A stretch of DNA of 51,853 nucleotides from Phormidium sp. FACHB-1136 (GTDB lineage Bacteria; Cyanobacteriota; Cyanobacteriia; Phormidesmidales; Phormidesmidaceae). Below are positions 49,858 through 51,853 of this stretch, in pieces. The notes under the pieces were generated by a model that saw only the letters and a list, made by a program, of their open reading frames with translations, searched no databases and had not been told where the DNA came from. Positions within the stretch are counted from its first letter, which is position 1, and every line of letters begins with the position of its first letter. Position numbers and translations under genes: made by a program. The stretch covers positions 1-51,853 of the forward strand of contig NZ_JACJRS010000038.1 in NCBI RefSeq assembly GCF_014697375.1, given 5' to 3'.

Positions 49858-50598
49858 TTACTTGCCTTCAATTCTTCTAGCCTCCTGGATAGTGGAATCA
49901 ATGACATGAAATTTGTCAAGATGCTGTTCTATAAAAAACTGTCCTTTATTTGCCAGAAGAGTCATATTCTCATTCAGTAACTTAAGATCAGCATTCAACT
50001 CAAGAAGAAAATTATGAGCCGTAGTGATTATATTCGCAAGTCTTTGATCTACGGCCTTGGTTAAAATATCTCTCGCTCTTGAGTTTTCAGGGAAATCTCG
50101 CTCAATTCTTTTTAGATCTTCAGCAGCATCATTAAGAGCACTATCTTGAAGCTCCTTATATTTAATAGTTCTCTCATAAACAAGGGTTTGTGCCCTATGT
50201 CGAAAATCGATTTGCATATCGTTAATAGAGTTAATTACCTGAACATTCAGGTTAGCCAGCTCTTTCTGATACTTTATAATAGCGTCAGAAACAGCTGTCA
50301 TTCTTGCGAATTCTCTATCTTTTTTGCATTGTTCAATCTCCATTAAAATTCTTGTTACTTCTGTCTCTTTCTTGATCTCAAGCTCATTTTCTTTTTCTTT
50401 TTTATATTGTTCAATCTCCATTAAAATTCTTGTTACTTCTGTCTCTTTCTTGATCTCAAGCTCATTTTCTTTTTTCCTCGCTTCCATTTCTCTGCGATGT
50501 GCTGACTTTTTCAATGGTTCGCCAGCCCAGTCAGTCACCAGCTTAATTGGTGCGTAAACAATATCATCTAGCTTGTCAAACATCTTAAACATATTCAT
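49858..50598 (-). CDS. Coiled-coil protein of unknown function, last gene of the AT-rich operon
   Basis: 246 residues, family not recognised. A short N-terminal segment (IVYAPIKLVTDWAGEPLKK) precedes a long charged coiled coil. Within it a 26-residue unit starting E44-N-E-L-E-I-K-K and repeating at E70 is duplicated nearly exactly. Residues 95-246 are further helices without cysteines. Base composition is much more AT-rich than the rest of the window. The start ATG 50598 directly abuts the stop of the upstream gene, so translation is coupled. It may be an adaptor or filament protein. Confidence 0.65.
   Translation of the reverse strand: MNMFKMFDKLDDIVYAPIKLVTDWAGEPLKKSAHRREMEARKKENELEIKKETEVTRILMEIEQYKKEKENELEIKKETEVTRILMEIEQCKKDREFARMTAVSDAIIKYQKELANLNVQVINSINDMQIDFRHRAQTLVYERTIKYKELQDSALNDAAEDLKRIERDFPENSRARDILTKAVDQRLANIITTAHNFLLELNADLKLLNENMTLLANKGQFFIEQHLDKFHVIDSTIQEARRIEGK
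50331..50474 (-). repeat. 78-bp tandem duplication inside the coiled-coil gene
   Basis: The sequence starting GTTCAATCTCCATTAAAATT occurs at 50331 and again at 50409. About 66 consecutive bases are identical including third codon positions. This implies a recent event or gene conversion, and adds 26 residues in frame. Confidence 0.92.
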
Positions 50599-51078
50599 TT
50601 AGCTACCTGCCTTAAGAGAAGCGATCTTTCGTTGAAATAATGCTCTGTCTTTTTTCTGCCAGTAAAGTAATTTTTGATAATTTTTCTCTGAGTTTTTACT
50701 CAAATCTAAAAGGCTTGTTAAAGCTATTTTTTTGTCTTCAAGAATACTGAGGATAAAATCTCGACTCTCGCTCGTCAGCATCGGGCTGCTGAATTTAATG
50801 TGATCTTGCACAAGAGTAAGAATTAGACTTATGAATGTCTCTCTAGAAGCTTCTGGGATATCAGAAGAATCCTCATGCAAAGATTGAAACAAGGGGAAAT
50901 GTTGATTTATCCAATCAATGAAAAATTCCTCAATGGATAACTCCATCAAAAAGCTTTCATTTTCAAACTCGAACATAGGGCCAAAAATGGCTTCGTCTTC
51001 ATGCAAAAAAGATGAAACAAGTGCTTCTCGGCACTGTTTCAGGCATTTGAGAGTTAGTAGCGTTTCTTCTTGAATCAT
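50599..51078 (-). CDS. Unknown helical protein, middle gene of the AT-rich operon
   Basis: 159 residues, family not recognised. The first half is acidic (EDEAIFGPMFEFENESFLMEL) and includes the aromatic segment IEEFFIDWINQHFPLF; the second half is mainly helical and basic at the end (WQKKDRALFQRKIASL). It overlaps the upstream gene by four bases (ATGA) and abuts the next. It has AT-rich codon use like both neighbours, so all three were probably acquired together. Confidence 0.62.
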   Translation of the reverse strand: MIQEETLLTLKCLKQCREALVSSFLHEDEAIFGPMFEFENESFLMELSIEEFFIDWINQHFPLFQSLHEDSSDIPEASRETFISLILTLVQDHIKFSSPMLTSESRDFILSILEDKKIALTSLLDLSKNSEKNYQKLLYWQKKDRALFQRKIASLKAGS

Positions 51079-51578
51079 CCATCACTCTCCTGTGAGGAAT
51101 TCGCTACGGATTGAATTCCACTTCTAGCCTCTTTTTTGATTTCGCCCAGCATACTTAAAACATTTTCCTCAATCAAACTCGTTGACATATCAATACTTTT
51201 TGTGTAGCTTTCTACAAGCTCCTTGATCCACATGGAAGCAACATTAGGATCTACTTGAGTCGAGGATAGCGTCTCAGAGACTTCTTTGAGTGATTCAGCA
51301 AAAAACTTGGTTCTTTCTTTCCTCAATTCTTCCTGCAAGTTATTTGCAAATTTTATTTCTTCTTTGTATTCCTGAATTAATTCTAAATAGTTCTTTTCAT
51401 ATTCATAAAGAATTGCCAATCTTTCTCTTGTTGCACTTAAATTTCCTGCAACTTTTAAGATAATTGCCTGAACAAAAACTTCTTTTGTTCCATCATCTAT
51501 ATTTAACTTTGATGCAAGATCTAACAAATCGGACTTGAGATTGCCTAAATTCAAATTCGTTTTAACCGGATCTGACAT
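51075..51578 (-). CDS. Unknown helical protein, first gene of the AT-rich operon
   Basis: 167 residues, family not recognised. Almost entirely helix-forming, with a coiled-coil-like central region (YEYEKNYLELIQEYKEEIKFANNLQEELRKER, hydrophobics spaced at three and four). No membrane segment or cysteine. AAGGAG lies 8 bases before ATG 51578, the strongest ribosome site of the three genes, so this is the operon head. The promoter must lie in the 76 bases to the transposase remnant or within it. Confidence 0.65.
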   Translation of the reverse strand: MSDPVKTNLNLGNLKSDLLDLASKLNIDDGTKEVFVQAIILKVAGNLSATRERLAILYEYEKNYLELIQEYKEEIKFANNLQEELRKERTKFFAESLKEVSETLSSTQVDPNVASMWIKELVESYTKSIDMSTSLIEENVLSMLGEIKKEARSGIQSVANSSQESDG

Positions 51579-51654
51579 CGTGTACTCCTTCGTGAAAGAA
51601 TATTTTTTGGGGGCTTGGCTGCCTATTTCTTTATCGCGAGTCCTAAGATACTCT

Positions 51655-51853
51655 TCAATCGCGGAAGATAAATTCGATTTGAAACCGCGCCGCGTAGCCT
51701 TGATAGATCACCAGGGGGTCACCGTCGATATCCGTGGAGAACAAGACGACATAGCTCCGTCGCCCGCCTTGCTCCTTGAGCAGATAGGCCAAGCGGATGG
51801 GGTGCTTGAGGCTGACTGACCAAACCACAGCGGTGTAGAGGGACACCCCCTCC
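51655..51853 (-). pseudogene. Broken transposase (IS4/IS701-like), open at the window edge
   Basis: The frame is open to the right edge and ends TGA at 51655. RSYVVLFSTDIDGDPLVIYQGYAARFQIEFIFRD is a typical transposase catalytic-domain segment with the Y-x-x-R-F-x-I-E-x-x-F-R-D motif (E as third acid). The protein should continue with A/S-K-Q after FRD but instead stops, and the following bases do not resume the family in any obvious frame. So the copy is truncated at about 51655, exactly where the AT-rich operon region begins. The rest lies outside the window. Confidence 0.75.

Follow-up and report, generated by a model that had tools for sequence, protein, structure and literature searches.

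The window analysed here, a whole contig of 51,853 nucleotides from the 260-contig draft genome of Phormidium sp. FACHB-1136 (G000), carries near one end three minus-strand genes, designated A, B, and C. These genes and their associated features are as follows.

51075..51578, minus strand: gene A, 167 aa, head gene of the trio and encoding its most conserved protein (open reading frame)
50599..51078, minus strand: gene B, 159 aa, predicted to be all-helical, fast-evolving (open reading frame; AlphaFold2 model)
49858..50598, minus strand: gene C, 246 aa, with an amphipathic N-terminal segment and a predicted long helical stalk and return helix (open reading frame; AlphaFold2 model)
50509..50598, minus strand: C codons 1-30, the amphipathic N-terminus (hydrophobicity comparison with homologues)
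50311..50474, minus strand: 78-bp tandem repeat in the C stalk, 2.1 copies, 95% matches (repeat search)
51585..51590, minus strand: AAGGAG ribosome-binding site, 6 nt 5' of the A ATG (sequence)
51655..51853, minus strand: remnant of an IS701/IS4-type transposase, with an early 3' end and running into the contig end (transposase model matches)

A and B meet in an ATGA overlap and the gap between B and C is zero, in agreement with the three-gene operon of overlapping or abutting genes that an earlier note had read from this DNA at the same coordinates. The strong ribosome site that the note assigned to the head gene is likewise present. The GC content of A, B, and C was 0.345, 0.360, and 0.354, respectively (0.353 for the whole trio), and their GC3 was 0.31, 0.35, and 0.32, compared to 0.582 (sd 0.021) and 0.694 (sd 0.042) for the other window open reading frames of at least 200 aa (n=28). 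None of 482 trio-length windows elsewhere in the 51.8 kb was as AT-rich as the trio, the minimum GC being 0.511. Codon use is thus AT-rich and unlike the rest of the window, as had been claimed, and since a GC3 of 0.31-0.35 stands against a mean of 0.694, the bias is more than an effect of Lys/Glu-rich proteins.

The open reading frame upstream of A matched transposase models of IS701 (E 1.2e-7) and IS4 (E 4.3e-5). It stops 87 positions before the end of the IS701 model and is interrupted on its 5' side by the end of the contig, confirming a truncated transposase beside the trio. One copy each of A and C is present in the genome, and a Uma2 gene follows C. Pfam models of DUF433 (26.2 bits), DUF5615 (40.7 bits), and Uma2 (100 bits) bore out all three identities that had been given to the DUF433/DUF5615 pair and the Uma2 gene. 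The stretch from chlN to Uma2 was matched in part by all 26 genomes of the genus. Similarity spans chlN to the DUF433/DUF5615 pair in G393, G394, and G406, with A absent in all three, and Uma2 adjoins chlN in G399 and G390, with A absent in both. Three relatives reach the Uma2 boundary (L071, L072, and L074, the last by a 97-base piece only), and in each of them similarity ends at most 4 bases from the Uma2 start and is followed by different genes. Given this linkage to chlN in relatives without the trio, and the ending of similarity at the start of Uma2, the DUF433, DUF5615, and Uma2 genes are, on sequence comparison, native to the lineage, and the site past Uma2 is variable. They are therefore not borders of an imported island, and the earlier reading of these genes as an island border and as the sign of a conflict cassette is not supported. 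A was present in 2 of the 26 genomes of the window's genus (G000 and G388), and B in the same two among 57 relatives. In G399, two large genes of 865 and 442 aa (L071:4141-8117) occupy the site beyond Uma2 instead of the trio.

Twenty-four loci were found through A, in 23 genomes and one IMG/VR contig. C adjoins A/B in 22 of these, and the two exceptions (L031 and L043) run to contig ends. A gene lies in the B position at all 24 loci and scores at least 38 bits at 21 of them; at the Bacteroidales loci L048-L050 it scores only 10.9-13 bits, about the 11.2 bits of a wrong gene there, so that B was assigned by position at these three. (The first gene of L048 was labelled B automatically, which is a mislabel, its score as A being 137 bits; in L051, A is split across two frames.) Among the 22 complete loci, 18 have the order A-B-C and 4 the order A-C-B, and an Azospirillum plasmid has C-A-B. 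Over 22 sets, the distance matrices were correlated at 0.74 for A-B, 0.80 for A-C, and 0.86 for B-C (0 of 5000 permutations for each pair), a correlation that can also reflect shared host ancestry. The GC content of the trio was below that of its flanks at 26 of 26 loci, at L037 by only 0.009; the Azospirillum copy itself is not AT-rich (0.54 versus 0.61 in the flank). The tree of C mixes phyla, grouping, for example, Leptolyngbya with marine gammaproteobacteria (support 95/90). A, B, and C are a horizontally moving three-gene unit. The earlier note had called the operon foreign and mobile and had set against this the outcome that the genes would occur separately and with native composition. 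That outcome failed, because the genes recur jointly and with GC under that of the flanks at all 26 loci.

Scanning 84,980 species genomes for A by peptide pattern yielded 23 loci, which is a lower bound, and a scan of the same kind with window C gave none. The complete trio was found in four phyla (Cyanobacteriota, Pseudomonadota, Campylobacterota, and Bacteroidota). Two further phyla show A and B followed by a contig end, Chloroflexota in an Anaerolineae MAG and Thermodesulfobacteriota in a Desulfobacterales MAG. The unit is rare: among random genomes, 1 of 398 was positive in the phylum to which Methylotuvimicrobium belongs and 1 of 326 in the phylum of a Bacteroidales MAG, the sole positive in each case being the seed. 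No match to window C, window A, or Shewanella A was found in 50,697 phage records, and IMG/VR yielded one trio contig, the same in three of five scans, with the other two scans empty.

Plasmids proved a further source. C matched 17 and A matched 19 of 72,556 plasmid records, the carriers being ColE1-type plasmids of E. coli and Salmonella and one Azospirillum plasmid, with A alone on two Klebsiella plasmids. Window B had no plasmid match, and Shewanella B found the same E. coli and Salmonella plasmids at ~55% identity. Trio DNA was present in 15 of 5,426 complete E. coli assemblies, with all 23 places lying on plasmids. The two Klebsiella plasmids (L026 and L027) belong to one strain and carry short A remnants only; one of them has a ColE1-type backbone, and the other is a large plasmid with such a backbone in it. 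For plasmids related to the small E. coli carriers, the available text of one paper describes a colicin 10 operon in the non-conserved region where pTB182A-2 has the trio (PMC9413875).

The proteins were compared with Pfam, NCBIfam, PADLOC, and PHROG. B had no match in any of the four, and the best match of A or C per library had an E of 0.0066-0.38, short of the curated thresholds in those libraries that set them; the statement that the proteins belong to no nameable family holds for these scans. Matches to DUF3826, Cor1, V-SNARE, CCDC84, Csm2, and atpA were weak, helix-driven, and at chance level, and were discarded. In PADLOC, the window proteins matched only Csm2 (E 0.38) and no DISARM core protein (DrmA, DrmB, DrmC, DrmD, DrmMI/II). 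The defence systems described in PADLOC 2023, a set that stops short of later systems, gave no convincing profile match to the window, E. coli, or Azospirillum proteins. A partial match of E. coli A to a type I methyltransferase (PADLOC E 1.1e-4, 18.7 bits, 129 of 857 model positions) was taken as helix similarity. No catalytic domain was recognisable in A, B, or C, and the tripartite alpha pore-forming toxins and Xax/Pax had no Pfam match among the window, E. coli, Azospirillum, and L022 proteins. Seventeen other genomes of the phylum gave weak matches to A (E 3.3e-4 to 8.8e-3), and there was one to C (E 3.5e-4), all attributed to chance coiled-coil similarity. Public plasmid records call A either hypothetical or a "nickel transporter" (for example, NZ_CP069580.1), and the latter name was taken into a published plasmid paper, as its available text indicates (PMC9413875). 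We rejected this name, as no such NCBIfam match was obtained with E. coli, Azospirillum, Shewanella, or methanotroph A.

Structural searches were equally unproductive. In PDB profile searches A had no match, and the sole matches of C (E 0.078) and B (E 0.037) were designed helical proteins. The fold search with B gave nothing usable (E 2.5 or worse in PDB, 0.45 or worse among viral structures), and neither did that with C (PDB E 0.66 or worse). A chain of the T7 tail complex can be superposed on the C hairpin (110 columns, 2.5 A), although with an E of 2.9, and PaxB appears in the weak fold list of B at Z 5.1, which is below the meaningful level for helical proteins. Neither B nor C had a significant fold match, and the T7 chain, Vipp1, and PaxB are not taken to be relatives. 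The literature searched, largely without subscription papers, held no account of a function for the trio. The three genes are therefore unnamed in the family libraries scanned and the papers searched, yet they are not orphan genes.

The description of the products as unrecognised, helix-rich proteins agrees with the AlphaFold2 models of B and C, both of which are helical, and with the absence of a family match for A, B, and C in the scans above. In the model of C, helices extend over residues 8-168 and 173-245 (pLDDT 78, with a low pTM of 0.38), and C is thus predicted to consist of a helix of ~160 residues and a return helix. In 20 of 23 homologues the stalk, from P28 to K93, is 54, 65, 76, or 98 residues long, each of these lengths being 10 modulo 11; the three exceptions are 50, 94, and 123, so that by distinct lengths 4 of 7 fit. 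The body is nearly fixed, with K93-Q151 being 58 residues in 23 of 23, and Q151-G219 being 68 in 20 and 67 in 3. The body and the return helix have periodicities of 99.0 and 98.5 degrees, respectively, near the 11/3 value of 98.2. The power there is 5.4 and 7.0, compared to at most 2.0 and 1.9 in shuffles and to 0.8 and 2.4 at the heptad angle. Long helices often show periodicity of the 11/3 type. No hendecad peak is present in the stalk, where the maximum lies at 109.5 degrees and barely above shuffles. The N-terminus of C is amphipathic in most homologues and glycine-rich and hydrophobic in those of four methanotrophs (L042, L044, L045, and L046), with a top 19-residue mean hydrophobicity of 0.56-0.70 in these four and 0.22-0.52 in the other 19, a modest value. 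The 78-bp tandem repeat of window C was not found in the copy of its nearest relative (L030).

B is poorly conserved, with 13-47% identity to the window copy, and its AlphaFold2 model consists of five helices (pLDDT 86.8, pTM 0.69). In an alignment of 24 A sequences, 25 columns are invariant, and 15 of these are charged or aromatic. The A proteins of the same four methanotrophs carry an extra N-terminal domain of approximately the first 105 codons, which showed what we took to be a GIY-YIG-like pattern. The two copies tested had no Pfam match at E up to 1 and no NCBIfam match was found, and the assignment was dropped. One copy of this extension was used in tblastn against plasmids and had no match.

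The neighbourhoods of the trio in relatives were then considered. At most loci no defence gene was recognised within the at most three neighbours scanned per side. An McrB-like AAA protein with a restriction-enzyme match lies upstream of the trio in L029, a DNA cytosine methyltransferase lies ~3.3 kb upstream in Shewanella (L036), and a RecD-like helicase lies near the Azospirillum trio (L025). In Sulfurovum (L034, 300-4100), the trio is divergent from a Phage_int_SAM_4 recombinase with GTTAGGT between them, and repeated hairpin-forming stretches follow successive genes. This adjacent recombinase, the motif, and the repeated hairpins, as judged by eye and with no attC model, make it probable that the Sulfurovum trio is an integron cassette. 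L052 has a DUF968 gene 5' of the trio. Upstream of the trio in L046 (5667-7188) are two proteins with hydrophobic Ala/Gly-rich stretches and no Pfam family. The earlier note had placed the operon in a defence neighbourhood, which applies to some relatives, with class-1 DISARM at three loci and the Shewanella methyltransferase, and not to the window itself.

The three DISARM loci belong to related cyanobacteria (L029, L030/L057, and L032), in which the trio lies directly 5' of drmD and on the same strand. In L057 it is followed by drmD, a 680-aa gene with no PADLOC match, drmMI, small genes, drmA, and drmB, an operon of class-1 DISARM. Such a co-directional arrangement is what would be expected if A, B, and C were accessory genes of DISARM, an explanation we nonetheless consider very improbable and did not retain. 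A search of 373 cyanobacterial genomes gave 30 other drmD hits in 26 of them, none with A, B, or C nearby (25 with ~1.4 kb or more upstream, 5 shorter or partial), the trio has no profile match to DISARM proteins, and in the window C is followed by Uma2, with the two drmD genes of that genome on other contigs (C112 and C65). Moreover, DrmD matched only 3 of 117 trio neighbours in PADLOC, as did DrmMI, among the 25 commonest of 139 families, which stem from the DISARM genes; on this basis the counts are no measure of defence enrichment. The three loci with DISARM lie in close relatives, and one event may account for all of them. The closer of the two drmD genes in the window's genome, whose contig ends 352 bases upstream and which is one of the five shortened hits, is 88% identical to the drmD of a trio-linked relative.

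Other functions can be envisaged. The trio might serve the plasmid or element that carries it, through addiction, entry exclusion, or bacteriocin-like competition, and it is indeed the only annotated cargo of pTB182A-2, a 5.4-kb ColE1-type plasmid, besides replication and mobilisation genes. A LexA-like CTG-N10-CAG site 115 bases before A in Pseudoalteromonas (L035) would also fit, but this may be chance, as the same crude pattern found no site at the other five of six loci checked, the E. coli plasmid included. As toxin-antitoxin and colicin families had no match in Pfam, NCBIfam, PADLOC, or PHROG, and chromosomal copies adjoin DISARM, we regard service to the carrier as unlikely. The small plasmids, the single IMG/VR contig, and the probable integron cassette would equally suit a counter-defence role in which the trio shields incoming elements from host restriction or silencing; this seems to us improbable, considering that anti-restriction families were unmatched in the same four libraries and that some chromosomal copies sit with DISARM.

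A different explanation starts from C itself. PspA and Vipp1, which are ESCRT-III-like, combine an amphipathic N-terminus with a long helical hairpin, features that C resembles, and C could by analogy coat or stabilise stressed membranes with A and B as partners. The weak fold matches of C repeatedly include Vipp1 and PspA chains (E 1.8-3.7) alongside other helical hairpins, and AIG1/septin-type GTPases, with weak LeoA/LeoBC matches, adjoin the trio at L031 (1545-3020, with a second GTPase-like gene after the first) and L044 (9772-10842). However, all fold matches of C are at E 0.66 or worse, the PspA_IM30 profile of Pfam gave no match at E up to 1, C is part of a three-gene unit, and the scarcity and mobility of that unit are unlike those of housekeeping stress genes, which makes membrane protection of this type doubtful. 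The stalk shape of C also recalls the ATP synthase b subunit, a membrane-anchored stalk with 11-residue periodicity. The likeness lies in the 11/3-type periodicity of the C body and the 11-residue steps in stalk length, and no homology was found.

A unit that stays whole over wide distances, is rare and low in GC, and occurs on plasmids, a virus-collection contig, a probable integron, and in defence islands behaves like known accessory conflict systems. We therefore think it a serious possibility, just short of an even chance, that A, B, and C form an obligate three-component mobile conflict system, probably one of defence against phages or other elements, with C as a membrane stalk. Two considerations place defence ahead of the other readings: several chromosomal copies lie beside DISARM or a methyltransferase, and the combination of a conserved core with a fast-evolving partner in a multi-part system would suit the sensing of invaders. 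More tentatively, the trio may constitute an undescribed, enzyme-free tripartite immune complex made up of a hendecad-type membrane stalk (C), a conserved core (A), and a fast-evolving sensor (B), distributed as a minimal cassette over four phyla or more by plasmids, other mobile elements, and defence islands.

The shape and N-terminus of C, as modelled, suggest how such a defence complex could work. The amphipathic or glycine-rich N-terminus would bind the inner membrane, and the helices of C would form an arm extending from it. A and B would dock onto the distal hairpin of near-fixed length, with A as the conserved core of the complex and B, its fastest-evolving part, as the probable sensor or specificity part. 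An invader, once recognised, might then trigger a switch of the complex at the membrane, with permeabilisation of the membrane or a block to DNA entry as possible outcomes. The party defended could be the carrier cell or a resident element, against phages or other elements.

A homologous trio, in the same order A-B-C and at low GC (~35%), has been published on the Salmonella plasmid pSe-Kan and in E. coli as three open reading frames; the available text of that paper notes them only as unknown and does not deal with the phylum spread, unity, or structure of the trio (PMC9282650). With no recognised enzyme domain, the trio would be missed by family-based searches for defence systems. As the trio is present on 5.4-kb plasmids of E. 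coli, it can be tested directly in laboratory strains. Three genes that are kept together in four phyla, yet in very few genomes, must serve a joint function. If that function is defence, the trio would add an enzyme-free, membrane-stalk type to the defence systems of bacteria; if the trio instead serves the plasmid, it would explain cargo that is listed as unknown or as "nickel transport" in the available texts of the two plasmid papers (PMC9282650, PMC9413875).
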